Source of the DNA: a virus
Reading direction: 5' to 3' (one strand)
IMG/VR virus record: IMGVR_UViG_3300009129_001478
Span: 33,632-97,631 of that record
Length of the DNA stretch: 64,000 bases
This document shows, piece by piece, positions 20,334 to 61,040 of the stretch. The stretch's first letter is position 1. Each line of letters begins with the position of its first letter. The notes under the pieces are model-generated. The model saw only the letters and a program-made list of their open reading frames with translations, was not told the DNA's origin and did no database searches. The translations under genes and the position numbers were made by a program.

Positions 20334-20660
20334 GGGGGTAACAGGTATCGATTGATGGGAAAGTAAAAACGGTGCAAGGGTGAGGGAAGCGGGGCTCACT
20401 AAAAACGCTTATCTAATAATCGCAGCTTAAAAACGATTATACAAAAAACATCAGCAGCTTAAAAACCTGACTATGTTTGAGGCGGTGGCAGCCAATAAAC
20501 AGAAAGCTACGCTATGTTTCTAAGTGCTTTTGATTGTTTTGGCCGGAATAAAACGATCTAGTCAAGTGGTCTGTCCGACGAAAAAAACAGCTCTAACCTT
20601 GTGAATGACCTTTTTATGGAACTAGACAAGACGGGAGTTCGAATCTCCCTACCTCCACCA
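20334..20660 (+). ncRNA. ssrA: tmRNA (ssrA)
   Basis: The 5' GGGGGTA pairs with 3' TACCTCC to form a tRNA-like acceptor ending in encoded CCA; the T-arm GGGAG-TTCGAAT-CTCCC is intact. The internal reading frame ends in GCA GCT TAA at 20421-20429, giving a tag that ends in Tyr-Leu-Ile-Ile-Ala-Ala, the usual Ala-Ala degron end. As in other tmRNAs, the stop lies in a hairpin (ATAATCG/CGATTAT). tmRNA rescues stalled ribosomes with SmpB; no smpB is visible here, so host SmpB would be used. A second GCAGCTTAAAAAC motif recurs 38 bases later. Confidence 0.9.
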
Positions 20661-38606: not shown

Positions 38607-40400
38607 ATGGCAAAAAGACCGATAAACTACACTAGCAGAGATTTTGAAAGTATCAAGCAAGACTTGGTGAACTATGCTGAAAGGTATTATCCCACAACCT
38701 TTAAGGATTTCAGTGAAGCTTCTTTTGGTGCATTGATGATGGATATGGTAGCCTATGTCGGCGATCAATTGTCTTTTTATGCTGACTTCCAGGCTAATGA
38801 GAGTTTTTTAGATAGTGCCATAACTTATGAGAATGTCAATCGTCTTTCAAACACACTGGGTTATAAAACCCCAGGCGCTGCAAAATCTACAGGACAAGCT
38901 TCTTTTTATGTTATTGTTCCCGCTGATCCCAACTCACGAGGTCCTGATTTAGATTATTTTCCAATTCTGCAAAGAGGGAGTCTAATCTCGTCAAAAAACG
39001 GATCCGCTTTTACGCTAGTGGATAATGTGGATTTTACAAATCCCAACAATGAAGTTACTGTAGCCCGAGTAGATGATTCAACCGGTAATCCTACATTTTT
39101 TGCAGTGAAAGCATATGGGCAAGTTGTGTCCGGACAGATCTACGAACAAATAACGGCTGTTACTGACTACCAAAGATTTTTGAGAATTAATGTCGATCAG
39201 GAAAATATAAGCGAAATACTGTCCGTAAAAGACAGCCAGGGGAATGAGTATTATGAGGTTGACTTTTTAACTCAAGATGTTATTATACAAGAATTTCAAA
39301 ATACAACTTCTGATCGCGAAGTTGTTCCTTATATTATGAAACTCAAGCCTGTTCCGCGCAGGTTCGTGACAGAGTTTGAATCAAATGGAGATACTTATAT
39401 TCAGTTTGGTTATGGTTCACAAGATAATATTACGACAGATGTTGTAGCAGATCCAGCAGATGTTGTTATGAACGTAAATGGTCGCACACATGTGACAGAT
39501 CAAACTTTTGACCCAACAAACCTAATCCAGACTGATAAGTTTGGAGTAGTCCCCACCAATACCACCCTGACCATTGAATACGCAGCCAATACTTCAGATG
39601 AAATAAACATTGCCGTGAATGGCTTGAGTGAAGTAATATCTCCTCGCCTATCTTTCAAGAACCAGGGCACGCTGGACCTCAATTTGGTCAATGGGGTTGT
39701 AACCTCTGTAGAAGTAGAAAATGAAAGCCCAATTCTGGGAGACACAAGCATATTGACGGCTGAAGAAATTAGAGAAAGAGCCTTCGGAACATTTGCATCC
39801 CAAAACCGCGCCGTCACCCGCGTAGATTATATTAACCTTATTTATCGCATGCCTTCAAAGTTTGGTAAAGTCAAGAGAGCTAACGTTGTTCGCGACGTAG
39901 ATTCTTTGAAAAGAAACCTGAATGTATATCTTTTGTCGGAAAATGCTAATGGCGATCTAATTGAGCCAAACGGGAATCTTAAAGAAAATACAAGAGTTTG
40001 GCTAAACAAATATAGAATGATCAATGATACTATTGATGTTCTGAACGGCAAAGTGATCAATATTGGCATCAAATTCAAGGTCCTTCCAGAATTAGACGTC
40101 AACCGCTATGAACTCCTAGATGCTTGCATACAAAAATTGAAAGATGAATATATCAATATCAAGTTCAATATTGGGGAGGCAGTTTATATTTCCCAGATTT
40201 ACAAACTACTAAATGAAGTGCCGGGCGTGGTGGACACGACAGAAGTAGAACTCGTTAATAATGTTGGCGGAGTTTATAGCAATTATAGATTTGATATTGA
40301 TTCTAATCTTTCAGACGATGGAAGATTCTTGGTGTTACCTGAAGATGCCGCTGCTGAGGTGTTGCTGCCAAATACAGATATTATAGGAGCGGTGATCTAA
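38607..40400 (+). CDS. gp6/baseplate-J-like wedge protein
   Basis: 597 residues. The N-terminus YTSRDFESIKQDLVNYAE with FKDFSEASFGALMMDMVAYVGDQLSFY-type segment is typical of T4 gp6/baseplate J proteins. The C-terminus has LNEVPGVVDTTEVEL, another hallmark. Structural dimer in the baseplate inner ring. Followed one base later by the next tail gene. Confidence 0.92.
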   Translation: MAKRPINYTSRDFESIKQDLVNYAERYYPTTFKDFSEASFGALMMDMVAYVGDQLSFYADFQANESFLDSAITYENVNRLSNTLGYKTPGAAKSTGQASFYVIVPADPNSRGPDLDYFPILQRGSLISSKNGSAFTLVDNVDFTNPNNEVTVARVDDSTGNPTFFAVKAYGQVVSGQIYEQITAVTDYQRFLRINVDQENISEILSVKDSQGNEYYEVDFLTQDVIIQEFQNTTSDREVVPYIMKLKPVPRRFVTEFESNGDTYIQFGYGSQDNITTDVVADPADVVMNVNGRTHVTDQTFDPTNLIQTDKFGVVPTNTTLTIEYAANTSDEINIAVNGLSEVISPRLSFKNQGTLDLNLVNGVVTSVEVENESPILGDTSILTAEEIRERAFGTFASQNRAVTRVDYINLIYRMPSKFGKVKRANVVRDVDSLKRNLNVYLLSENANGDLIEPNGNLKENTRVWLNKYRMINDTIDVLNGKVINIGIKFKVLPELDVNRYELLDACIQKLKDEYINIKFNIGEAVYISQIYKLLNEVPGVVDTTEVELVNNVGGVYSNYRFDIDSNLSDDGRFLVLPEDAAAEVLLPNTDIIGAVI

Positions 40401-40401
40401 A

Positions 40402-42357
40402 ATGGCTATCAAAAAATATTACGCCGATAAAGACAATACAATTACAAATGCATACAAGAGTAATTTGATAACTCGTGGCACCGGGTCCAATATGGGCGCA
40501 GCAGATATTCTTGAGGCTTTTGTCATTCACGGACAAACATCAGCATCTGTCACGACTTCTCCTTCTGCGGCTAATGCTACCAATGCAGAACAGAGCCGAT
40601 TTATTATTCAATTTCCGCTAGCGACTATTGCATCTGATATGTCTAGCGGCATTTTGCCGGCAGATACGGGTAGCATTAAGTTCTATTTGAATCTCTACAA
40701 TGCTCCCCATGGTAATACAGCACCTAGAGATTTTTCACTAGATGTTTATATGCTTTCTCAGGAGTGGACAGAGGGTCGCGGATTAGATATGGAAAATTAT
40801 ACAGACCTCGGCGCGTCAAGTTGGGAATCTGCTTCGTCCGGAACAACATGGACCCAGGCTGGCGGAACATATTTGCCGGCAGTCGGTACCGCTACAGCTA
40901 CTGTTTCCTTTATTACGGATAGTACACCTACTGCACTTGATGACGGCAAAACCATCATCATAACAAACTATGATGGCACGATTGCCACCTTTACTTTGAC
41001 AGCCGCTACCCGCTCCTCTACCGAAATTGATCGGTCTGCTATTGGTAATGTTAACGACTTTGCTACTGAGATTAAAGCCTCTATGGACCTGGCAGTTGCT
41101 GCTGGACTTCTCAAGGCTACCGTATCCCCCGTAGAAAACGATATCAACGGAAATCCAAGAATGATCACTCTTACTGCGGGAGCAGCCGGAACAATCGGCA
41201 ATCAATCTGTGGCGGGAACATTTATTACTGGTGGGGGCGGAGAAGTAATTTGCAATGCTACCTGTAATGATCCTTCGGTTGGCAATGGGTCATTGGCATT
41301 TACCGGCGGAGTTGATGCCGGTTCCACTCAAAAAACGTTTTCCTTTGAGACAGGTCTAGAAAATTTATCACTTGATGTTTCTGATCAGGTTTATAAATGG
41401 CTGGATGCTGTGAGTGGCGACCTGAATTGCGGTTTCCTTATAAAATTTCCAGACTCTATAGTATCGGGGTCTCAAAACTTGTACACTAAAAAGTTCTTCT
41501 CCAGAACCAGCGAGTTTTTTCATTACCGACCAACCTTAGAAGCCCGCTGGGATTCTACAAGGAAAGATAATCGTGGAAACTTCTTTGCCAGCAGCAGCGT
41601 TGCCTCAGCCGCCAACAATTTGAATACTCTTTACCTCTATAATATAGTGAGAGGACAACTTCAGAACCTCCCAGGAGTGGTAAACGAAACGTTGACAGTT
41701 GATATCTATTCTGGGAGCACAAGTCCTGCCGGCACTCCGCTAAGCCTTATAAAGTCTGGTGGTACAGCAGCGACAAGCGTTCCAGCCGGCATTTTGCGTG
41801 AAAACGGAGCAACAATTACCGGTGTTTATACAGCATCGTTTGCATCCACTAGTTCTTTGGACACTGTATTTGATGTTTGGCATACTGGCTCGGGTGCTTC
41901 TAGGGTAAATTTCTATACTGCTTCATATGGTCCTAAAACCTTTGGAACCATTGATGGACTTTATCGCGAAGAATATTTAACCTCTATAACAAATTTAGAA
42001 GATTCTTATACACAAGGACAGACCCCAAACCTTCGCGTATTTGCTAGAAAGAAAAATTGGAACCCCAACATTTATACAGTCGCGACAGCGGAAACACTCC
42101 CAGAAATTATAGAAGATTCTTATTACCGCGTTCATAGAGTTGTTGATGGCTTAGAGGTCATCCCTTTTGGTACGGGAAGTACTAACAACTACTTCAGTCG
42201 TCTCTCATACGACGTGAGCGGTAATTATTTTGAATTAGATACTTCCTGTTTAGAGCCTGGTTATGCATATGGAATTACATTTGCATACTATTTACAGGGT
42301 GAGTATGCTGAACAACCCGAGGTGTTCAAGTTCAAAATTAAAGAAGAAGATAAATGA
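40402..42357 (+). CDS. baseplate/tail protein with inserted repeat module A, 651 aa
   Basis: The N-terminal part (about 55-155) reads like a DNRLRE-type beta-sandwich: GSIKFYLNLYN, QEWTEGRG, and, after the insertion, LSLDVSDQVYKWL. Copy A of the repeat module interrupts this sandwich at residues 164-306. The C-terminal part has TASFASTSSL and beta strands. A virion surface protein, likely involved in host contact. ATGA overlap with the next gene. Confidence 0.78.
   Translation: MAIKKYYADKDNTITNAYKSNLITRGTGSNMGAADILEAFVIHGQTSASVTTSPSAANATNAEQSRFIIQFPLATIASDMSSGILPADTGSIKFYLNLYNAPHGNTAPRDFSLDVYMLSQEWTEGRGLDMENYTDLGASSWESASSGTTWTQAGGTYLPAVGTATATVSFITDSTPTALDDGKTIIITNYDGTIATFTLTAATRSSTEIDRSAIGNVNDFATEIKASMDLAVAAGLLKATVSPVENDINGNPRMITLTAGAAGTIGNQSVAGTFITGGGGEVICNATCNDPSVGNGSLAFTGGVDAGSTQKTFSFETGLENLSLDVSDQVYKWLDAVSGDLNCGFLIKFPDSIVSGSQNLYTKKFFSRTSEFFHYRPTLEARWDSTRKDNRGNFFASSSVASAANNLNTLYLYNIVRGQLQNLPGVVNETLTVDIYSGSTSPAGTPLSLIKSGGTAATSVPAGILRENGATITGVYTASFASTSSLDTVFDVWHTGSGASRVNFYTASYGPKTFGTIDGLYREEYLTSITNLEDSYTQGQTPNLRVFARKKNWNPNIYTVATAETLPEIIEDSYYRVHRVVDGLEVIPFGTGSTNNYFSRLSYDVSGNYFELDTSCLEPGYAYGITFAYYLQGEYAEQPEVFKFKIKEEDK
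40891..41320 (+). repeat. repeat module copy A (about 143 codons)
   Basis: Begins with an ATATVSFITD motif and ends at LAFTGGVD. Shares long near-identical DNA with copies B and C, including a 22-base identical run around 41027. Lies inside the 651-residue tail protein. Confidence 0.85.
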
Positions 42358-45300
42358 GTGTAAAAAAGCTATTTGACAATAACAAACAAATCGTTACTGT
42401 TGGAAAATTCCTAAAGCTTAGTGCGCCCGATGCCCTGGGTGATGGAATAGAATCCGACGCTCACTTATCTGCATCCATTCAGAAGCAGGATTATTTTCTC
42501 CCCCCAGTTGATTATTCAAAACCAGAAAATTTTGTAAAGTTTGGTTCTGCCGAACAATATTATTCTAATGCCTTCAATTATATTGCCAACTATTATCCTT
42601 ATGATGGATCAATTTTGGAAAGGGTTAGTTTTTATAATAAAATCAATCCTTTAGAAAAATACATTCTTGAGGATTTATATCCAACTTCTACGGGCTATGT
42701 CACCATCGGTGCGGACTATGGCACCGTGACAACAAATGCAACAGGGTATGACTCCTCGTCGGCAGAATATATTCAGATCAAGGGCGGCCCACACTCCGGA
42801 TCCATTTATAAGGAATCTAAAAATAGAACATCTAATCTTGAATTTGGTGGATCCAGCGGAAGCTCTGTTGAATTCTTTCTAAAAAAGAACTCAGCCAGTG
42901 ACGGGATTTCAAGTTCAGAGAAGCAAGTAATATTTGACCTTTGGAATGGTGCCTCTGATACTAGCGCCACAGCCACTGCCATTATCATTACAGACGGCAC
43001 GCCAATTGCTCCCGATGATGGCAAAACCATTATCATAACAAATTATGATGGCACCACCGCTACTTTTACTTTGACAGCCGGCACTCGTTCTTCTACAGAA
43101 ATTGATCGGTCTGCTATTGGCAATGCCAACGATTTCGCCACTGAGATTAAAGCTTCTATGGATTTAGCAGTTGCTGCCGGACTCATCAAGGGCACTGTAT
43201 CTGCTGTAGAAAACGACGCCAACGGCAATCCAAGAATGATCACGATCACTGCTGGATTAGCCGGCACTATCGGGAATAAAGCTGTTTCAGGAACATTTAT
43301 AACTGGTGGCGGCGGAGAATTAGTTTGTAACCCTGCTGGCAACGATCCTGCGAGCGGAAATGGAACACTAGCATTTACCGGCGGCGTTGACGGCGGCTAT
43401 GGTAGAATGAGAATTGAGTTAAGGTCTCCCACCGAAGATCGCTTCTATGTTACCATGTTATCCGGCGCGACGGGCTTTAGCAGTATTCCTGTTCCCACAA
43501 CAGGTAACATAGACATTACTGATGGGGTTTTCCGGAATTTTGCGTTTGTCTTCAACACCTCCGGCTCTATACCGACTTTAGATTTCTTCGTCAACGGTGC
43601 ATGTATCCAAACGGGCATAACTTCTTCAGCCATCAGCGCAATTGGTTTAGTGACCGGCTCAATGATCGGCAACATTGGCGCACTGCGGACAGACATTGAG
43701 GGATCCCCAGGCGCAGCAGAAGGGTATGGTAAACTTTCAGCGTCTATTGATGAATTCCGATTTTGGAAAACAAGCAGGAACGATGAGCAGATTGGCCGAT
43801 ATTGGTTTGATAATGTCGGCGGCGGCACGGATAAATACGATGCCAATGTGGGACTTGGCGTATATCTTAAGTTTAATGAAGGTATAACTCAAACAGCCAG
43901 TGTTGATAAAATTTGTTTAGATTATTCTGGGCGATTGTCAAATGGTACATTCACGGGCTATAGTAACACCTATAGTAGGAATACTGCTTCTGCAATTGAC
44001 TCCCTTAGTTTAGAGTCAGTCAAAGAAGTTGGCGACCCAATCATTAGAACATCCAATCCGCTCTATATTACAACCAAGGCGGACTATGTTTTGACCGGCA
44101 GCAATTATGATTATAATAATAATTCTCGCTTGCTAAATCATCTTCCTAACTGGATAATTGAAGAAGAAGAAAACGGCGAGAATGAAATTGTAAGTGTCAC
44201 GCAAATTTTATCCAGTTATTTTGACACCCTTTATAATCAACTAACTGCTCTCAAAGAATTACGACATCTAAAATATATTAGTGGCAGCGCCACGGGATCT
44301 ATTAATGAGTATCCCTATAATGATCGTTTGGTTGAATCTATGGGACTAGAAATGCCCGAATTCTTCCAAAATGCCGGCACCTTGCAGCAATTCTTAAAGA
44401 GAGATGAACAAATCAATTTTGAGCAGCGACTTGTAGGGGTCAAAAACTCAATTTATAAAAACATCTACAATAACCTTAGTTTTATTCTAAAGTCTAAGGG
44501 AACTGAAAAATCAATCAGAAACTTCATTCGCTGTTTGGGTGTCAGTGAGGAGGTTATAGCCCTCAACACTTATCCGGATAATTCTGACTATGAAATTAAA
44601 AGTAATTATTATTCTACAACAAGCACCAAACGATTTGCAGATTTTACAGGATTTCTAAATCAAGATGATGTAAAGGCAACGGTTTATCAATATCCGGACT
44701 CTTCCAATATAAATTCAAAAGGCTTCGTAACGGGTTCAGTAAATCTAGAAGAGTTTGCTTTTTCTCTCCAAAGTGAAATAGTTTTCCCAAATAAAGATAA
44801 CCCAGAACTCTTGCCTTACGTTATGCCCAGGGTAGTGACATCTTCTTTGATGGGTTTCCATACTCCATTTGATTCAGATCAGACGTCAACCGATATGACG
44901 TGGCAAACAGCCGGTAATGACTATGGACTTCAGGTTTACGCTATTCGTAGCCCAGGAGAATATCCTAAAGTCTATTCTCCCAATTATCGCGTAAGAGACG
45001 CATATTTTGTAGTTAAGGACCGCGCAGGCACTACACTCCTCACGAGTTCTATTTTTAATGATGTATATGATAATCAAAAGTGGAACTTTACTTTATCATT
45101 GCGTCCGAAAAAATATCCATTCGCTGACGGTATAAACGGAGCATCAGTCTCTACGGACGGATACACGCTAGAATTGTATGGTGTAAATTATGACACTGGT
45201 ATAAAAAGAAACAGCTTTTTAGCCAGTGCTGACATGACTTACAACGCCGCGGCACCTATTGTAGAATCTAATAAGAGAGTCTATGTCGGCGCTCACCGAA

Positions 45301-47195
45301 CAAACTATACAGGCAGTCTTTTAACAAGATCTGATGTCCGCGCATCTAGTGTTAGATATTGGACAGATCATTTCCCCACTGGAACCTTGGATCTCCAAGC
45401 CAAGGAGACGGATACACACGGACGCCTAAGACCTTACAGAAATGCGTATTCTTTCCAATCACAAAATCCAAATGTTTATATCCCCCGCATTCAGACTCTT
45501 GCTCTTAATTGGGATTTTGCCGACATTACTGGAAGCGATACGTCAGGACAGTTTACGGTACAAGACATATCTTCAGGATCGGTAGCTGCCGATTATCCAA
45601 GCCAATACCAAAAGGCAATGTTCAGTAACATCAATTTGCGGCAGCATTCTGGACGAGGTGACTTCTTCGCTGCCAGTGCAACACCAGTTCGCAAGGAATA
45701 TGTTTATACTGAAAAACTACAAGTCCCTGAATATGTTGGCGGCGAAGAAATGGTTCAGGCTCTCAATTCCGATGAGCAGACTTTTGGAATTTATACAAGA
45801 CCTGAGACTTTCTACTTTGCCGTAGAACGAAGCATGTATCGCAGTATCTCCAACAGGATGCTTGAATTATTCGCCAGCATTGAGGATTTCAACAATCTCA
45901 TCGGCGAGCCTGTAAATAAATACCGCTTAAACTATAAGCGCATGGAAAAGGTCCGAGAGATATTCTTCCGGAAGGTAAGAAACGATATTCCAGACCTAGA
46001 GAAATATATTGATTATTATAAGTGGCTAGACACTTCAATGAGTCAGGTGATTGAAGAGTTTTTCCCTGAATCTGCTCGCCACGCATCTGATGTTCGTAAA
46101 ATTGTTGAGAACCACGTTCTTGAGCGTCCAAAAATCCAGCATAAGATTTCAATACTAAGAGACCGACACCCCGGCGGCACCCCCGGTCCATCTGGTTCTA
46201 TTAGGGGATCTGTCTGCCTGGATTATCCTGGCTGGGGCAAAAACCATAGACCAATCTCCGGACTCCAAACTCAGAACTGTTTTTGGTGGCAGACAAGAGC
46301 CGAACGAGATGAGCCACCTCTTGTAGTGACTGCCGGCAACCTGCCATCACGCAATGCTGTTCTCAACGCCGCTCAAAAAGATGCAAACTCTCATTCTCTG
46401 ATTTGTTTATCAGCTAACATCATTCCTCCGTATTACGGCGGCATCAATCAGTATCTTAATAAGAAGCGCCGCTTCCGTGATTTAACCTTTGATAGGTTTG
46501 AGCCACTTGAAGATTGCACAGATGAAGATGTTCCGAACGAAAAGAAGAAGATTGCCTTCAGGGCAACCAAAGACGGCACGCTCTACAAAGGCAGCCAGAT
46601 CACACCGTTCACCGCAGTAAGTTCTAGCATCCTTTCAGGTTATAATGCAGAACTTAACAGTTCAGGCTTGACAGGTATCTCTCTTACTAACCTCCACGAA
46701 GACAGTATCCTTCCATATCGTCACAGTGTTCCTATGCAGGGACCGTTCCCTCAACGCTGGGTCGGTGGTATCCAAGCACGTCACAACGCACCATTTAGAA
46801 CAGTAGATCGCGCTGAAGAATACAGTTTAGAGATTACCACCGGCACTGGCTCCATAACAACCTTAACCATAGAAAACCAACCTAAAGGTCAATACCTAAG
46901 AGGGCTGGCTTCCAAATCACCTGTCAACATATCCAATATCAAAACCGTCATTTCTGAACACACCACTCCCGATGGTGTCCGAGTTGTCGGAAACTATTCA
47001 AAATATTATGAAGTCGTACAGGGCAATGATCGCTCAGAAACCAATATGGACTTTGTGTTCAACAACGATCATTACGCCTACAGTATGCCATCAGCATTTC
47101 TAACCCCTCCCGCGCGCAGAACACTAGGATTAACAGGTTCAGCAGATTACCCAGCACCTCGCCAGCGTCAAGCTGTCGCAGCTACTGCAATCTAG
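42354..47195 (+). CDS. large virion protein with LamG-like domain and repeat module B, ending at an in-frame amber codon
   Basis: 1613 residues. A LamG/concanavalin-like fold starts near residue 165 (SVEFFLKKNSA), is interrupted by module B at 204-347, and resumes with GRMRIELRSP, FAFVFNTSG and DEFRFWKTSRNDEQIGRYW. The remaining 1000 residues are beta-rich virion-like sequence. The gene stops with TAG (47193-47195) inside the first strand of module copy C, and the same frame stays open for another 1985 codons. Inference: either a readthrough product or a recently broken single gene of about 3600 codons. Carbohydrate-binding role for the LamG part is likely. Confidence 0.8.
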   Translation: MSVKKLFDNNKQIVTVGKFLKLSAPDALGDGIESDAHLSASIQKQDYFLPPVDYSKPENFVKFGSAEQYYSNAFNYIANYYPYDGSILERVSFYNKINPLEKYILEDLYPTSTGYVTIGADYGTVTTNATGYDSSSAEYIQIKGGPHSGSIYKESKNRTSNLEFGGSSGSSVEFFLKKNSASDGISSSEKQVIFDLWNGASDTSATATAIIITDGTPIAPDDGKTIIITNYDGTTATFTLTAGTRSSTEIDRSAIGNANDFATEIKASMDLAVAAGLIKGTVSAVENDANGNPRMITITAGLAGTIGNKAVSGTFITGGGGELVCNPAGNDPASGNGTLAFTGGVDGGYGRMRIELRSPTEDRFYVTMLSGATGFSSIPVPTTGNIDITDGVFRNFAFVFNTSGSIPTLDFFVNGACIQTGITSSAISAIGLVTGSMIGNIGALRTDIEGSPGAAEGYGKLSASIDEFRFWKTSRNDEQIGRYWFDNVGGGTDKYDANVGLGVYLKFNEGITQTASVDKICLDYSGRLSNGTFTGYSNTYSRNTASAIDSLSLESVKEVGDPIIRTSNPLYITTKADYVLTGSNYDYNNNSRLLNHLPNWIIEEEENGENEIVSVTQILSSYFDTLYNQLTALKELRHLKYISGSATGSINEYPYNDRLVESMGLEMPEFFQNAGTLQQFLKRDEQINFEQRLVGVKNSIYKNIYNNLSFILKSKGTEKSIRNFIRCLGVSEEVIALNTYPDNSDYEIKSNYYSTTSTKRFADFTGFLNQDDVKATVYQYPDSSNINSKGFVTGSVNLEEFAFSLQSEIVFPNKDNPELLPYVMPRVVTSSLMGFHTPFDSDQTSTDMTWQTAGNDYGLQVYAIRSPGEYPKVYSPNYRVRDAYFVVKDRAGTTLLTSSIFNDVYDNQKWNFTLSLRPKKYPFADGINGASVSTDGYTLELYGVNYDTGIKRNSFLASADMTYNAAAPIVESNKRVYVGAHRTNYTGSLLTRSDVRASSVRYWTDHFPTGTLDLQAKETDTHGRLRPYRNAYSFQSQNPNVYIPRIQTLALNWDFADITGSDTSGQFTVQDISSGSVAADYPSQYQKAMFSNINLRQHSGRGDFFAASATPVRKEYVYTEKLQVPEYVGGEEMVQALNSDEQTFGIYTRPETFYFAVERSMYRSISNRMLELFASIEDFNNLIGEPVNKYRLNYKRMEKVREIFFRKVRNDIPDLEKYIDYYKWLDTSMSQVIEEFFPESARHASDVRKIVENHVLERPKIQHKISILRDRHPGGTPGPSGSIRGSVCLDYPGWGKNHRPISGLQTQNCFWWQTRAERDEPPLVVTAGNLPSRNAVLNAAQKDANSHSLICLSANIIPPYYGGINQYLNKKRRFRDLTFDRFEPLEDCTDEDVPNEKKKIAFRATKDGTLYKGSQITPFTAVSSSILSGYNAELNSSGLTGISLTNLHEDSILPYRHSVPMQGPFPQRWVGGIQARHNAPFRTVDRAEEYSLEITTGTGSITTLTIENQPKGQYLRGLASKSPVNISNIKTVISEHTTPDGVRVVGNYSKYYEVVQGNDRSETNMDFVFNNDHYAYSMPSAFLTPPARRTLGLTGSADYPAPRQRQAVAATAI
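42963..43395 (+). repeat. repeat module copy B
   Basis: Opens with ATATAIIITDGTP and closes with GNGTLAFTGGVDGG; lies in a loop of the LamG-like domain. By eye about 80 percent identical to copies A and C over the core. Confidence 0.87.
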
Positions 47196-47600
47196 ATTAC
47201 AGATGGTACACCGATTGGAGCCGATGACGGTAAGACAATCGTCGTTACAAATGATGATTTAACTGTAGCTACTTTCACTTTGACGGCAGCCACACGCTCT
47301 TCTACACAAATTGATCGGTCTGCTATTGGTAATGCTAATGATTTCGCTACTGAGATTAAAGCTTCTATGGACCTGGCAGTAGCCGCTGGACTTCTCAAGT
47401 GTACAGTATCTGATGTTGAGAATGATGCCAACGGCAATCCAAGAATGATTACGTTGACTTCTGCGATTACTGGACAAAAAGGTAATCAACCTGTGGCAGG
47501 AACGTTTATTACTGGCGGCGGCGGAGAGTTAATTTGCAATCCAGCCGGCAACGACCCTGCTGCCGGCAATGGAACTTTGGCATTCACAGGCGGTGATGAC
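47178..47600 (+). repeat. repeat module copy C, containing the TAG codon
   Basis: Opens AATAI-stop-ITDGTPI and closes LAFTGGDDA. The stop replaces a hydrophobic residue (Ile, Phe or Leu in other copies) near the start of the module, so the module spans the junction of two annotated reading frames. Confidence 0.87.
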
Positions 47601-50600
47601 GCAGTTCGCACGAACCAGACAATCTTTACTGACCGATTTGCTGCACCTGGCTCCAAGCAAGATTCTAAACAACAATTTAGGGATGTGAACTCTGATCAGT
47701 TCTCTCCCAACAATGCGCTGCCCTTCAGAAACATGGCAGTACGTCAACCTTATCACAAGGATTTGACTGAACATTCACTGTTTGGCGGTGTTGTTGGTGT
47801 TGCTACTGGTAGTGCTGTTCTTATTACAGATTCCGCGCCAATTGCTGCCGATGACGGCAAAACAATCGTCCTCACCAATTTTGACGATACAACCGTAACC
47901 CTTACGATGACTGCTGCCACAACCTCTGCTACACAGATCTCGCGCGCAGCGTCAGGTAATGCTGATCTCTTTGCTATTGCCATCAAGGCTTCTCTAGACT
48001 TGGCCTTCGCCGATGGGACTTTGAAATCTAGAGTTTCGGCAGTTGAGAACGATGCCAACGGCAATCCAAGAATGATCACCCTGACTTCAAAAGTCGCGGG
48101 AACAAGAGGAAATAAATCAGTATATGGAACATTAATAACCGGTGGTGGCGGCGAAGTAATTTGCAACCCTGCCGGCAATGATCCAGGGCTAGGCAACGGT
48201 ACACTAACCTTCTTGGGCGGAACAGACAAACCTTCAGTACACAAAACCCCAATGAACCGGGTCAACCAACTTCTGATTGACACAACCTTCCCAACGACAA
48301 CTGTCATCACGGGAAGTACATTTGATAATGGTTATGTGACTAGAGCTTTGCCGGCTGCTGACAGATCTCAGTGGACTTCTTATATTTCCGGCTCAGACAA
48401 CGCTTCGGTTTATGGTCAATATGTTGCTTTGCGTTCTCGCTACCCTGCAAACATCTCTTTTGTAACTCAAAGTCTCAACTCTGTTTCAAGCTGGGATTCT
48501 GCCCTTGTCTTTGATTTAGCATATACAAAAAAATTCAAGTGGTCTAAGAATCGTGATTTTGTACCATGGAAGCAAATAAGCAATGGTACAAGCCCATATG
48601 CTAAATTCTATACACAGAAGAACACCTACAATATTCTCCCGCAAGAAATAGAGACCGTGCAGGATGGAACCGGATTATCAATGATTTCCTATGCTGATGG
48701 TTCTCGTGGGACTTTGCCAACTACTGCGCGACAAGTTACAGATAGGAAGGGAAATACTTCTAATTATTATTATTCTGTTTCCCTCAGAGAAGCGCCAATC
48801 ACCTCTAGGTACAAGCCTTTAATCCACCAAATCAAGACCCCACTGGGAACACCGGCAAAAACGTTGGGCGAGAAAATAACTGTAAGTATGAAATACAGTT
48901 ATGGTAACGAGTTGATGGGTTTTGCAAACAGAGAACTCAATCGCCAATTAGATGGTGGATTGAAGTTTTCTTACGGGAAAATAAAAAGACCTTATGAAAT
49001 ACTAAGAGATCAGTTTGTACCACCAACTCCTCGCGTTGTCAATGGTGCAGATCTTATTAAGGTGTTCTCATATCCTGAAACAATTTATCCTAAAGAGATT
49101 TATACATATTTCTCTGGCTCCAGAGCCCGGCTGTCATTTATCAATGATTTCTGGAGGAGTGATATAGCGGTTGCGAGCTATAATGTGGGTGCTTTCACTT
49201 CCTATGTTAACCTTCGGAGCGAAGAAAACAAGCTAGCTTACAATAGGCAGCTTTCCCGCGTTCAAGGAAATTTTGTAACATCCCAGGGTTACGCAGTCCA
49301 AGCTTCAGAACAAACACCATATAATTCATTGGACGCTTCCCATCCTATTGGGACTGGTAATGGCTCTGGGTCCATGTGGCCACTTGATTCATATCTATAT
49401 TCTGATTCTACAGGATCTTTGGTCACGATTTTGACAGCTTCTGCTCCTGTAGTTTTTGCCGATGCGGCAACAATGCCTTGCGGCGAACTAATGATGACCC
49501 ACTATGGAACGATTAATGATAAGGTGACCAATGTTTCTTTCCGCGACGGGACAGCTTCTTATGTTGCTGCAAACATTAATTCAGCACAATATGTGTATAA
49601 TATCCCTGTAACTACTTTCACCGCATACGCAACTCCAGCCGTGCCGGCAAATGCATCAATTACAGCCGTTGAGACCGTGCCAAGTATTTTGGATGGAAAA
49701 ACAATTATAATTACAACAACCACTACTGCTGTGACATTTACATTTGACCAGACAAAATTACCAAGTTCCGCCTTATTGAGGGTTAATGCAACATCTTATT
49801 TCATAGGGTGTAGCGGCGTTAGTACCACAAACGATGTTATAAATGCTATCTATACTTCTGTTTCTTTATGTAAATCAAATGCAGAGATTGATGTAACACC
49901 AGTAAACCCAGGTGCTGTTGGTGCTGTGATGCAGATTGTGGCAGATGTACCCGGCGTGGCAATGAATGGGCAGGCTATTACAGGTACAGGAATTTCCGGC
50001 GGACAATGTACTCAGATCGCTTTTTCTGGCGGCGCTGCTGGCGGAGTTGCGTTCTCGGGAGAACTACCAGAGCCTCGCGCGCCTGGTGCCGCTTATACTC
50101 GCCCGGCTTGGACTGCTGGTCGCGACCGTCGTTATGTTGACGGACCAAGAAGAGGACAAATTGCACAATCCGTATATCCATTTTATGGGTCATACGAGGA
50201 ATATGTATCAGATATTAGATTGGTTGGTAAAGACCATACAATCTTGCCAGAGTTCCGAATCAGCGAGCATGTTGAACAATACAAGAACGAAGGAGCCCTC
50301 TTTGCAGTCATATCAGCAAGTCTTGAAATAACAGGGTCTAATACCAGTAATTTTGACGGAACCAATCCAAGCTTCTATGAAAGGTTTGCCCAAACTGATG
50401 ATATTGAATTCTTGGAAGATTTTATGCCCACTGACGAAGGTGATCGTAATTTCATATTCAATAATTATCCTCGCCACTTTGAGTTGGAGTCAGAAGCCAT
50501 CGTCAAATTATTGCCCTATAGCGGCTTTTACCCGGTAGACAGAACTCTAGATATTGCCTCTTTATTTAGAACGACATATTCCCCAAATGCTGTGTTTACA

Positions 50601-53153
50601 GGCACTTCAGGCGGAACTACTCCAGCCTGGCGGTCAATTCTTAGACCTTTCTTTGCGCCAGGGATCATGTATAACTCAATCAAATCCGGACTTGCAGTGG
50701 ATTATCCCATCAGGAGGTCTGGAAGAAACGCTGATCAATATTTCCCCCTTGGTGCCGCGACCTTTGACAGTCTTAGGGGTTGTTTAAGCGGAGCTTTAGA
50801 TAGTTCCACTACTGAGGCTGGTACTATTCCCGGCAACTCTAGACGAAATAAGACAGATTTAGAGTGGGCAACCTCAACAGAGGTAGATAAATTCTTCTGG
50901 GCAGACAGGCTGCCATTTGAAACAATTCTTGATCCTGCTGCCGCACTGGAAGATGGGTTTGAAAAGCCTACCGTTCTGTCGGACATTAACCAACTTTTAT
51001 ACCTAGACGTTAGTGGCTCTATTACAACCAAGGGGCTGGATGATACTCTTTATAAAAAGGCAGTCTCCAATTTCTTAGCAAATGTACCCAAATTCTTCCT
51101 GAGCAAAAAAGAAAACAAGTTTGGCTCAGATGGGTACTTGACTAAATTTGTGGCACAGTTTGGAAAACCAGCATCAGCCGAGGGTGAAGTTTCCACCCCG
51201 GTCAGGACAGTGGGTGTCCAAAAAGATGTCGCCTATATGATGGAAATTGGACTGATGAAGACAGATGAATTCAATTTTTATAGCAACCCATATGCTTTTG
51301 GTGTCCCTACTGCTACTGGTTCTGCGGGGTGGGATACTCTGACTGCCAATCAAGTACCAAAGCCCCTGTCGTGGCCACGCCATCGCGGCGAATTTGCTCC
51401 ATTTACACCACCTCATTATTATGGCCCTTCTTTGGTTCGTATCACGTTTATGCCAGAAGGCGACAGAGAGGAATATACACTAGATGAAATTATTAACAAT
51501 GATCGGGGAGAGGTTTTTGTTCAATTCTTGAATGCGAGTGGTAGTTTTTATGATTTCACATCTGGGTCATTTGTTGACCGAGACGGCGCTGCAACCTCCA
51601 CTACGGCTACTCCTGACTATGGCTGGAACCGTGCATGGCAAAACCGAATGGACTTGGATGCCTCTATAAGTATTAACAATGAGTTTCCCACCGATCATGG
51701 AGGATTGTATAAATCTACTGACCCCAATAAGTGGGTCATCATGCCTAAGTGGGAATGCCCAACCTTAGACTTCCCAGACCGGTCAGGACCAGCAGACCAA
51801 TATGCACTTTCATCGTCAGTGTCCACAGGATTATATACTTCTTCGGCGCAGGGGATGTGGCACCAATATGGTGTGATGCCCCAGACTAACCAGGGATCAT
51901 ATTTGTATATTAAAGACATTCCCACTGGAGAACTAGAAGAATATGATTTAGTGGCAATTGCCAGCACAGTGGGCGTGAATACAGAGAGAACATATAAATA
52001 TGTGAAGAAGGTACCTGATTTTGTTTTAGAAACAAATAGATCAGTGCAGTCTTTAGCAGACTTATGTGGCTTTGATCCTGAAGAAATCATCAGATCCGGA
52101 TTTGATATGTCTAAGGCTAAACGCCTAGGAGAACTTGCAGTTGATGACGAAAAGAGTATTTCTGAAGCGATCCTAGCACTGCCTTTCTATATTGATCCAA
52201 AATTAAATAAACCCAGACTAATAACTCTCCAGGCACCTGCTGACAAACTCGGGCCTAAAATTAAGCAGTTTAGGAAGCAATTTACCAAGTTCTCGTTGCC
52301 TCCTGTTTTGGCAAGAAAGCTTTTAGGTATGATCCCACAGGGATATCCCACTATTCCTGATTTTATTAATCCTTTTGGTGGAGATGATTATGATTCCATC
52401 TTGGATGGAGAGGAAATGGCAGAAACCCCTGTGGTTTATCTAATGGAACACAAAGTTTCTTTAACAAGGCAGGATTTATCCGATATTTGGCAAGGGATTA
52501 TGCCGGAACTTTCAACTAATTTCAAACAGAGTGTTTCGGCTATAGACCATTATATGCCCGGCGACAATGTAGAAGAAGATCCCACTCGCTTCCCAGAAGT
52601 AATGAGGGAGCAGCTAAATTTAGATATGCCTCGCGACGGTCATCCAAGATATGATTTATTGGATATTGCAAAACACCCAGATCGTCTAGGGTTCTTTCCC
52701 GATATTAAATGGCTTGTTTTCAAAGTCAAGGAGCGAGGCATTCCCTCTTATACACAAATGGTTGTAGAAGAAGTTGAGGGAGATAAGGCATTTACCTATG
52801 ATAGTGTCCGGCAAATGTTCATAAATGAGGGGATGGACCAGAGAACCGCTTCGCGACTCCTCGCCGATAGGGACAACTTTTCTAAGAGTATTTATATACT
52901 CAAACATCATCTATCTGACCCAACCTATAATTGGCCATATGATTACTGCTCAGTACTTGAATTGGGTAAAATAAACACCAAGATAGGCTTCCGTCCGGAA
53001 CTTAAGACAGAGATGGAGGAATATGAAAACGAAGGAAGGTTTAGGACCAGAGAATTAGAGAGAGCAGTTGAAGAAACAAGAACGGGCTCCGGAGTGATTC
53101 CCTCGCCAGGGTTAGACCTGCGCCAAGGACTGTCACAAAACCGCCCAGAGTGA
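47280..53153 (+). CDS. giant virion protein, in-frame continuation of the upstream frame
   Basis: The frame is open from 47196, right after the TAG; the first possible start is TTG 47280 with no Shine-Dalgarno site, and the first ATG is 47367 inside module C. 1957 residues from 47280. Holds the rest of module C, then a NQTIFTDRFAAPGS segment with NALPFRNM (a pattern I recall from single large virion proteins of marine phages), module D (about 174-317), a divergent module E (about 789-923), and long beta-rich domains. Likely a tail or baseplate-attached protein. Expression probably depends on readthrough, a reversion, or a non-standard start. Confidence 0.7.
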   Translation: MTAATRSSTQIDRSAIGNANDFATEIKASMDLAVAAGLLKCTVSDVENDANGNPRMITLTSAITGQKGNQPVAGTFITGGGGELICNPAGNDPAAGNGTLAFTGGDDAVRTNQTIFTDRFAAPGSKQDSKQQFRDVNSDQFSPNNALPFRNMAVRQPYHKDLTEHSLFGGVVGVATGSAVLITDSAPIAADDGKTIVLTNFDDTTVTLTMTAATTSATQISRAASGNADLFAIAIKASLDLAFADGTLKSRVSAVENDANGNPRMITLTSKVAGTRGNKSVYGTLITGGGGEVICNPAGNDPGLGNGTLTFLGGTDKPSVHKTPMNRVNQLLIDTTFPTTTVITGSTFDNGYVTRALPAADRSQWTSYISGSDNASVYGQYVALRSRYPANISFVTQSLNSVSSWDSALVFDLAYTKKFKWSKNRDFVPWKQISNGTSPYAKFYTQKNTYNILPQEIETVQDGTGLSMISYADGSRGTLPTTARQVTDRKGNTSNYYYSVSLREAPITSRYKPLIHQIKTPLGTPAKTLGEKITVSMKYSYGNELMGFANRELNRQLDGGLKFSYGKIKRPYEILRDQFVPPTPRVVNGADLIKVFSYPETIYPKEIYTYFSGSRARLSFINDFWRSDIAVASYNVGAFTSYVNLRSEENKLAYNRQLSRVQGNFVTSQGYAVQASEQTPYNSLDASHPIGTGNGSGSMWPLDSYLYSDSTGSLVTILTASAPVVFADAATMPCGELMMTHYGTINDKVTNVSFRDGTASYVAANINSAQYVYNIPVTTFTAYATPAVPANASITAVETVPSILDGKTIIITTTTTAVTFTFDQTKLPSSALLRVNATSYFIGCSGVSTTNDVINAIYTSVSLCKSNAEIDVTPVNPGAVGAVMQIVADVPGVAMNGQAITGTGISGGQCTQIAFSGGAAGGVAFSGELPEPRAPGAAYTRPAWTAGRDRRYVDGPRRGQIAQSVYPFYGSYEEYVSDIRLVGKDHTILPEFRISEHVEQYKNEGALFAVISASLEITGSNTSNFDGTNPSFYERFAQTDDIEFLEDFMPTDEGDRNFIFNNYPRHFELESEAIVKLLPYSGFYPVDRTLDIASLFRTTYSPNAVFTGTSGGTTPAWRSILRPFFAPGIMYNSIKSGLAVDYPIRRSGRNADQYFPLGAATFDSLRGCLSGALDSSTTEAGTIPGNSRRNKTDLEWATSTEVDKFFWADRLPFETILDPAAALEDGFEKPTVLSDINQLLYLDVSGSITTKGLDDTLYKKAVSNFLANVPKFFLSKKENKFGSDGYLTKFVAQFGKPASAEGEVSTPVRTVGVQKDVAYMMEIGLMKTDEFNFYSNPYAFGVPTATGSAGWDTLTANQVPKPLSWPRHRGEFAPFTPPHYYGPSLVRITFMPEGDREEYTLDEIINNDRGEVFVQFLNASGSFYDFTSGSFVDRDGAATSTTATPDYGWNRAWQNRMDLDASISINNEFPTDHGGLYKSTDPNKWVIMPKWECPTLDFPDRSGPADQYALSSSVSTGLYTSSAQGMWHQYGVMPQTNQGSYLYIKDIPTGELEEYDLVAIASTVGVNTERTYKYVKKVPDFVLETNRSVQSLADLCGFDPEEIIRSGFDMSKAKRLGELAVDDEKSISEAILALPFYIDPKLNKPRLITLQAPADKLGPKIKQFRKQFTKFSLPPVLARKLLGMIPQGYPTIPDFINPFGGDDYDSILDGEEMAETPVVYLMEHKVSLTRQDLSDIWQGIMPELSTNFKQSVSAIDHYMPGDNVEEDPTRFPEVMREQLNLDMPRDGHPRYDLLDIAKHPDRLGFFPDIKWLVFKVKERGIPSYTQMVVEEVEGDKAFTYDSVRQMFINEGMDQRTASRLLADRDNFSKSIYILKHHLSDPTYNWPYDYCSVLELGKINTKIGFRPELKTEMEEYENEGRFRTRELERAVEETRTGSGVIPSPGLDLRQGLSQNRPE
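47800..48230 (+). repeat. repeat module copy D
   Basis: Opens TGSAVLITDSAPIAADDGKT and closes GNGTLTFLGGTD; more diverged than A-C, with SRAASGNADLFAIAIKASL replacing the core helix. Confidence 0.82.
49645..50048 (+). repeat. divergent repeat module copy E
   Basis: Same order of elements (ILDGKTIIITTTT, a helix with NDVINAIYTSV, then MQIVAD and a Gly-rich end QIAFSGGAAGG), but little base-level identity to copies A-D. Recognised by pattern only. Confidence 0.6.
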
Positions 53154-57929: not shown

Positions 57930-58841
57930 ATGTCTTTCAAGAGAAAAATAAATGTTGCAACACCTGGCAATGCCCGCGATCCTCTTCGGAGGTTTTATAA
58001 TCGCAAGGGATATATAAAACCCCTTCGCGAAGATCCTTCCCTGGAAGCATCGGCTGAAGATCATGGGAGCAAAGTCCGCTGGTCTTTGGGGGGCTGGGAA
58101 CAAAATTTAGATTTACCTAAACTCGCGACCCAAAAACAAATGGACGATTGGCTTTCTGCCTATAAACAGGACACCACCGCCCAGAGACATGGTTGGCTTG
58201 AAGAGATTCGTTCAAACGATTATCTTTCTGGTGACGGGATGGGAGGAATTATTAGCCTGCCCAATGTTTTTTCCAAGCTGAGGATTGACAGCCTGGATCG
58301 CATATTGAGAGAGTCTGGGGATCTAATTAGTGCCCGACTCTCTTCTATGGACGTGTTTCATGCCGGCGAGCCCACAGAAGAAGCTGTCAGTTTTTATAGC
58401 TCCATTCTTGCCACTGCAAAAATAGACGCGCCCTTGTATGTACATGCTGCCAATATGCTCATGCCCGACCAGAGGAGGTCCGAATTTCAGTCCAATATTA
58501 TAGAGCTTGAAACAGAGGTTGCCGCACAACAGCGTAGACTTGAAGCTGCCCAAGATGATATAGCCGAGTCCCTTGATCGCGACCAGACGGTATCCCAAGC
58601 ACGCTATGATTTTGTCGCAAGTTTAGAGCGCAGAATTACAGAACTAGAGAGAGAAATTGCAGCAAACCGATCGCAAATTGCTGCGATAAACCCCCAAGCT
58701 TTTCCGACTTTGGATGTGTCTTTTAGGTTTGGTACACTTTATTTATATGCTGGATTAGGTGCGGAAATCTTAGCAGACAAAATAGCTCTTTATAATGCAG
58801 TTAGGAACGTTCTAGGCACTGAAACAATCTTGAACTTTTAA
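57930..58841 (+). CDS. virion protein with central coiled coil, 303 aa, ending at an in-frame TAA
   Basis: Starts two codons after the previous TAG, in the same frame, with a weak GGGGAG element 12 bases upstream. A coiled coil at about residues 185-250 (LETEVAAQQRRLEAAQDDIAE, then LERRITELEREIAANRS) is followed by a beta part. The TAA at 58839-58841 is followed immediately by a long open stretch in the same frame. Confidence 0.68.
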   Translation: MSFKRKINVATPGNARDPLRRFYNRKGYIKPLREDPSLEASAEDHGSKVRWSLGGWEQNLDLPKLATQKQMDDWLSAYKQDTTAQRHGWLEEIRSNDYLSGDGMGGIISLPNVFSKLRIDSLDRILRESGDLISARLSSMDVFHAGEPTEEAVSFYSSILATAKIDAPLYVHAANMLMPDQRRSEFQSNIIELETEVAAQQRRLEAAQDDIAESLDRDQTVSQARYDFVASLERRITELEREIAANRSQIAAINPQAFPTLDVSFRFGTLYLYAGLGAEILADKIALYNAVRNVLGTETILNF

Positions 58842-58940
58842 CATTTTACTCCGGAACATAAACGCACAACATATGAAGCCGTCAAATTCACAATAGAAAC
58901 ACCATATGTCACAAGAACCGAGATCTACCCCTTTCTAGAG

Positions 58941-61040
58941 TTGAACGCAGGACTCAAAAATGAACAGGGCATTTCCAGAATAAATCCAGAGTACCTTTTT
59001 TATGATGAGAATTTTGAAAAAGCCATCAGCGGATCTAACCTTCCAGAGAATGTACAGCCCAGCATGTATATTTATGATCTCTCTACCTCTGCCATAACTG
59101 ATAATGAGGGGTTGACAGTCAGTCCGGGCTGGCAAGGCGACCCATCTGTTGGGAATAAACTACAATATTGGTATTCGTGGCTAATGCGCCTCGCGGGAAA
59201 TATCCCCATTAATCAAAATCTTTTGAACGATACGAGTTTGCGAGATTATCTGGATTCTTTTGCTCACGAAGCAACTTGCAACCTTACGGAACAACAAAAA
59301 AGTATAATCAACCGCATGTACCGAACAATAATGGTTCCCGCCACAGAGATGGATACGTTAAATAAGATGGAAGAAAAGAAGCGATTCTTTCCGATGTATT
59401 TGGAAACCTCTTTTGCAACTTCGCCGCAGGGTGATGTTGGGGAGATCATTGAAAAGAATAAAACAAGTTCCCCCGTTTTGGAATACCTACATGCCGGCTC
59501 CGGCAGAGACAAGGTTTATGAAATCCGAGCAGATTATCTTATTGGCGACTTTATAGATTTTCCAGACGACGATATGTTCAAAAATGTTTATCTATCAAAA
59601 CCTCTTAGGGTAACAGAGCTTTATGAAGCTTTGAATTATGGATCCCATAGAGAGGTCATTGATTCTTTGGTTATATCCGCTCATGGACTGGAGCCTGTCA
59701 CGAGAGAAGAACTAACAGTCGCTCAAGATGCGAATCGTGCTCGTGCATTTATAAATGTTCGTTCCGCGCTGTCCTCAAGGGCCAAAAAATACTTCAGCTA
59801 CCTGGGCAGAAAAACTGAATCACCCTCTGAGGCTCTAGGATATAGGCTAACCAAGCGCGACGAGGAAGGGACAAAGATACAAGATATTATCTTTGGAAAT
59901 TCAGGAGAAACAAAAACTATAAATTATGTTGACACTCAAGTCAAATATGATAAAAAATACCAATATGAGTTGAGTGAGTTCCGTCTTGCGGTCGGAACAG
60001 AATATGAATTATTCGTAGTTGACGCTCGCGAGCCACGCGAATTAAGAACACTTAATCGCGACGAGATACCAGACACCTTACCGCCGCAACAGGTTTTTTA
60101 TGATATTGTTTCTATTGAAAAACCCACAACTCAAGTGATAGAAGTTCCAATTTATGGATCATTTTATGAGATACCAGAATTTCCAGGCATGGAAAAAGGA
60201 TCGGATTATCCTCTGGCTAACATCATGTCTCATCCTCCTACAGCCCCAGATCTTCAGGTCCTACCTTTGTTGGATAATTTTCGGGAAATTAAATTAAACA
60301 CACAACTTAGTACCGGGGAATATGTGGGCAGTCAAGCCCTCAAGGTCATAAATGTTGGACAAAATGAAGAAAAACTTCAAGCACTTTATGAATACCAAAA
60401 ACAGTTTGAAAACTATGGACTAAAGCCAGGTCACCTAGAATATAAAAACGAAGGCGTAGAAGAAATACAAAAGGTAATATTACTCAGGTCAACGGGTCTA
60501 AATTTTGCGGCTCCAAGTTATGATGACCTATACGCTTCATTTACCATGGGGGAAGAGAGAGTGTTGTCTTTAAATCCCGTAGGTGATGAGGAAGAGGTTG
60601 TTTCATTTGATGTACTAGACACTTTAGAAACTAACGTGTATTATTATTATACTTGTTATGTGGAAGATGTTCATGGTAACCCATCATTGCCGGCTCCTAT
60701 TTATAGAGTGAGACTGGTATATGAAAAAGGCTTGTTCGTTCCTGAAATTGAACTCTTTCAATATAAGCCTATCTCTACGAAAGCTCCGAGCAGGAGATTT
60801 TCTAGATTTATTCGCATTGGAGCATCCGACATTCAAACTTTCCCTTTCTTTGATCTAGGTCCTGACGGCGATATGCAGGGTACAAAAAACCTAGCATCAG
60901 TACAAGGATCTACTGTTACCGGCAACAGTTTTGTCTTCCGTTTAACGTCGCGAGACACGGGTCGGAAGTTTGATATAAAGCTCACCTTCAATGAAAAAGT
61001 ATTAGAGGAAGACGATGAAAATACATTGTGTAATGAATAA
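58941..61040 (+). CDS. virion protein continuing in frame after the TAA at 58839
   Basis: The frame is open from 58842 without interruption; TTG 58941 is the first possible start but has no Shine-Dalgarno site, and the first ATG (59064) has none either. 699 residues from 58941 (732 from 58842). Residues before 58941 (TPEHKRTTYEAVKFTIETPY-like) look coding. Beta-rich C-terminal half with a fibronectin-like stretch (YYYYTCYVEDVHGNPSLPAP). Possibly one protein with the upstream frame. Confidence 0.65.
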   Translation: MNAGLKNEQGISRINPEYLFYDENFEKAISGSNLPENVQPSMYIYDLSTSAITDNEGLTVSPGWQGDPSVGNKLQYWYSWLMRLAGNIPINQNLLNDTSLRDYLDSFAHEATCNLTEQQKSIINRMYRTIMVPATEMDTLNKMEEKKRFFPMYLETSFATSPQGDVGEIIEKNKTSSPVLEYLHAGSGRDKVYEIRADYLIGDFIDFPDDDMFKNVYLSKPLRVTELYEALNYGSHREVIDSLVISAHGLEPVTREELTVAQDANRARAFINVRSALSSRAKKYFSYLGRKTESPSEALGYRLTKRDEEGTKIQDIIFGNSGETKTINYVDTQVKYDKKYQYELSEFRLAVGTEYELFVVDAREPRELRTLNRDEIPDTLPPQQVFYDIVSIEKPTTQVIEVPIYGSFYEIPEFPGMEKGSDYPLANIMSHPPTAPDLQVLPLLDNFREIKLNTQLSTGEYVGSQALKVINVGQNEEKLQALYEYQKQFENYGLKPGHLEYKNEGVEEIQKVILLRSTGLNFAAPSYDDLYASFTMGEERVLSLNPVGDEEEVVSFDVLDTLETNVYYYYTCYVEDVHGNPSLPAPIYRVRLVYEKGLFVPEIELFQYKPISTKAPSRRFSRFIRIGASDIQTFPFFDLGPDGDMQGTKNLASVQGSTVTGNSFVFRLTSRDTGRKFDIKLTFNEKVLEEDDENTLCNE

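Follow-up and report, generated by a model that had tools for sequence, protein, structure and literature searches.

The window, by which we mean the whole 64,000-nucleotide stretch of DNA analysed here, belongs to a virus record of 97,631 bases and carries a giant gene in a virion region, positioned one gene after an ORF at 38607-40400 that matches baseplate-wedge families. For this wedge protein, the best cultured matches came from a Microcystis phage and Flavobacterium phages (genus Immutovirus), at ~32% identity, and both cultured genomes contain a large ORF, of function not known, three genes after the wedge gene. Judging by its position, the giant protein is probably a tail or baseplate-associated virion protein. 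The features relevant to its interruption, and to that of a second gene further downstream, are the following.

40882-41322, plus strand: module A, located in the preceding gene (40402-42357); present only in this contig among the aligned relatives
42354-53153, plus strand: giant virion-region gene with 3,598 sense codons plus an internal TAG; one ORF in relatives
42960-43400, plus strand: module B; present only in this contig among the aligned relatives
47172-47611, plus strand: module C, an in-frame insertion of ~145 aa; present in G001, G003 and G008, lacking in G002 and G006, replaced by another insert in G005
47193-47195, plus strand: in-frame TAG; the codon is TTA in L005, TTG in L007 and TTG in L045, the orthologues that share module C
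47796-48236, plus strand: module D; present in G001 and G008, lacking in G002, G003, G005 and G006
57930-61040, plus strand: second virion-region gene, interrupted in frame; one ORF of ~880-1,230 aa in 12 relatives
58839-58841, plus strand: private in-frame TAA; codons for Leu, Ile or Phe fill this column in the nearest relatives

The ORF starting at 42354 comprises 1613 aa and is terminated by the TAG, after which the frame is open from 47196 to a TGA at 53151-53153, adding 1985 codons in the same frame. On this arrangement, re-reading of the sequence agreed with the preliminary description. Because the 1985 codons are homologous to the second half of the single ORF in those relatives that reach that far, the open stretch is not a product of chance. 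The first in-frame start candidates 3' of the TAG are TTG 47280 and ATG 47367, and a Shine-Dalgarno sequence is absent at both, which bears out the earlier claim that no start with a ribosome-binding site follows the stop. Moreover, the codons between the TAG and the first of these candidates are conserved with L005 and L045.

The TAG had also been placed within repeat module C, at a site where the other copies carry Ile, Phe or Leu, and the module alignment confirmed this: the stop occupies the 10th column, beside an invariant Ile, with Phe in copy A, Ile in copy B and Leu in copy D. A structural model of module B showed a mixed alpha/beta domain (mean pLDDT 73) that had no match in the PDB at E <= 0.001, and according to this model the TAG falls within the first predicted strand of the module. 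Modules A-D are clean in-frame insertions of ~145 aa that relatives lack at the corresponding sites. Of note, two adjacent virion-region genes carry this domain at fixed positions, its presence and absence varying among relatives, and G005 (L012) carries a different insert at site C. The insertion sites look like a hotspot for exchangeable domains. Given that module C lacks the stop in three relatives, the TAG did not arrive with the module insertion itself.

IMG/VR searches with the portion ahead of the stop yielded 37 loci, and those with the portion behind it 8, some of which share contigs; all relatives are metagenome contigs themselves. In 42 of the 42 related loci read, the giant gene is one uninterrupted ORF over the region that each holds, amounting to ~127,000 codons without an internal stop (near-duplicates and contig-end fragments included), and where a contig holds the whole gene the ORF spans ~3,070-4,140 aa. 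The preliminary description had asked whether relatives share the TAG, or else carry two separate genes, the second with a genuine start of its own beyond the stop. Neither was found: none of the 42 loci has a stop at this position, the three relatives with module C having leucine codons instead, and the relatives carry one gene. A pattern scan for near-identical strains found only G001 for the 47193 site and nothing for the 58839 site, a search of cellular genomes found no relatives, and neither half of the giant protein matches anything in 50,697 phage records. Compared with G002, dN/dS was 0.040 for the codons preceding the TAG and 0.053 for those following it, values that are approximate as synonymous sites are near saturation. 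Purifying selection is thus of similar strength on both sides of the TAG, which means that the downstream part has been kept as one protein together with the upstream part. An untranslated downstream half would be expected to have acquired 47-157 further stops (assuming a branch of 0.24-0.8 substitutions per synonymous site), and 0 were seen. Since dozens of stops would be expected and none occurs in 1985 codons, any loss of translation should be recent, covering by a rough estimate at most a few per cent of the age of the lineage. The stop is either private and very young, or not real. The conservation further suggests that the giant protein is essential.

A second interrupted frame, overlooked in the preliminary description, lies in the same contig 11.6 kb downstream of 47193. 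Here, the TAA at 58839-58841 divides the 57930-61040 gene, the relatives of which were taken from a search of known records. In G002, an ORF of 1,022 aa runs through this position and is 59% identical over its whole length, and homology to G002 extends across the stretch from the TAA to the following start candidate (TTG 58941). The nearest relatives have CTG, TTG, TTG, ATT and TTT in the column of the stop, from which we infer that the ancestral codon was a TTR leucine. A wider search for this gene revealed no internal stop in the matched frame, except in the distant record G025. When the contig was scanned for coding potential and compared with G002, 47193 and 58839 were the two stops where a single gene's coding sequence lies on both sides; further high-scoring stops that were inspected each precede the start of the next gene in the same frame.

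Other parts of the record contain features of separate interest. A phage-encoded tmRNA is located at 20334-20660 (Rfam RF00023, 67.5 bits), and its position, before a PhoH-like gene, corresponds in the window and G002. In 15 related phages the tmRNA tag has 11-14 residues and AA at its end. In the window, the codons starting at the resume codon are GCA GCT TAA (Ala-Ala-stop), so that the normal tag frame is lost; there are several changes in the tag region, the rest of the RNA is conserved, and GCAGCTTAA occurs again 32 nt later, out of frame. Judged by its sequence, this tmRNA may release ribosomes without tagging, may be decayed or may use a shifted resume point. tmRNA genes were present in 16 of the 30 records searched of this uncultured phage group, including L055:6109-6431 and L057:11543-11866. 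At 690-2633, the window also harbors a gene for a PrkA-type serine protein kinase (Pfam PF08298, PF06798) within a phage genome. Upstream of the window, at about -7661 to -7183 in window coordinates, the contig has two small overlapping ORFs where G002 has one 131-aa ORF, reflecting a frame change.

In-frame TAG codons in structural genes are known from phages with altered codes: some crAss-like phages have reassigned TAG to glutamine (code 15; PMC9523058), and in phAss-1 TAG is found inside 41 ORFs (PMC10607447). In contrast to these systems, the present contig has just one TAG and one TAA of this kind, both at leucine rather than glutamine sites, TAG serves as a normal stop, and no suppressor tRNA was found. 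Among the 86 genes orthologous to G002, 46 end with TAA, 27 with TGA and 13 with TAG, the corresponding counts in G002 being 42, 30 and 14. With TAG or TAA terminating 59 of these 86 genes, much as they do in G002, and only two internal cases in the contig, we rejected code reassignment. A more restricted form of decoding would be that both stops are real and suppressed by a leucine-inserting ochre-type tRNA, supplied by the host or by a missing part of the phage, such that full-length proteins are made. The TAG and the TAA both lie where relatives have Leu or other hydrophobic residues, a single ochre suppressor would serve for both as such a tRNA reads TAG as well as TAA, the downstream half of the giant gene is still conserved, and the 97.6-kb contig is probably incomplete, given that relatives reach 178-190 kb. 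However, the tRNAs that ARAGORN detected in the window are six ordinary ones; it detected none in the other 33.6 kb of this probably incomplete contig, and no suppressor; none was found in the 178 kb of G002 searched either. The unchanged use of TAA and TAG at the ends of conserved genes and the lack of internal stops in other large genes likewise speak against such a tRNA. We therefore regard suppression as a speculative reading with a slim chance of being correct, and the chance is likewise slim that the two virion proteins depend on it, their stops being read as Leu by a tRNA that the host or unsequenced phage DNA encodes.

Programmed readthrough, by which the virion protein would be made in a 1613-aa version and a longer one, has a precedent in the A1 protein of Q-beta, which arises by readthrough of the coat-protein stop. 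The giant gene resembles this case in that the frame of a virion gene stays open beyond a stop, here for 1985 further codons. Unlike in Q-beta, the stop at 47193 is not kept in relatives, with 0 of 42 loci having an internal stop and leucine codons standing at the site, and a conserved protein would lose more than half its length through termination. Furthermore, the TAG sits in an optional module, and the 120-nt folds following the two stops showed nothing unusual (z = -0.25 after the TAG, z = 0.75 after the TAA), although structure is not required at all readthrough sites. TAG-ATT is not known to be a readthrough context. In light of these data, readthrough is very improbable. The two open stretches with one codon between them could also mean that, in this lineage, the gene has become two working genes, but a restart after the 47193 stop was rejected for lack of a ribosome-binding site. 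Because the relatives have one gene, conservation begins ahead of the first start candidate and the TAG cuts a predicted beta strand, we consider such a split extremely improbable.

In sum, the private TAG at 47193 very probably reflects either a nonsense mutation of recent origin or an erroneous base in the metagenome consensus, rather than a programmed signal. At this site, a private stop is one change away from a sense codon, leucine occurs in relatives, and intact conserved sequence lies on both sides, with coding selection downstream, as would be the case for a spontaneous nonsense mutation or consensus error. From the readthrough, nonsense mutation and assembly error offered in the preliminary description, a nonsense mutation or a base error is thus what the comparison retains, while readthrough finds no counterpart in the relatives. 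According to this interpretation, 42354-53153 would be one very large protein gene adjoining the baseplate genes of an uncultured phage, in which a leucine codon was converted to TAG, most likely via one base change. Translation of the sequence as it stands would end at residue 1613, leaving the conserved remainder of 1985 codons unexpressed. That a second private stop exists in the same contig favours a damaged genome or flawed consensus over a designed signal, and the two private stops, seen in one contig and in none of the relatives, point to a recently damaged genome or consensus error.

Counting against a mutation or error at both sites, two nonsense codons in the ~4,600 codons of the two genes is far above what is seen in relatives. 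A generally error-rich contig was rejected as an explanation: none of 192 otherwise invariant columns was violated in a leave-one-out comparison, which has little power at realistic error rates and is blind to a rate near 0.04%, and no clear frameshifts were detected in the large conserved genes of the contig. Atypical for spontaneous events is also that both stops are compatible with a T-to-A change in TTR leucine codons, a class expected to make up ~9% of nonsense changes and to account for both in ~0.8% of cases, according to a simple, post hoc model. Given their co-occurrence and shared T-to-A pattern, there is a small chance that both go back to one cause, for example a suppressor that inserts leucine.

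These findings mainly advise caution, as the conspicuous stop within a giant phage gene from a metagenome proved to be confined to a single contig, and gene-calling software would predict two false genes at 47193 and two more at 58839. If reads were to confirm the stops, the question would become how such a phage completes two of its virion proteins.
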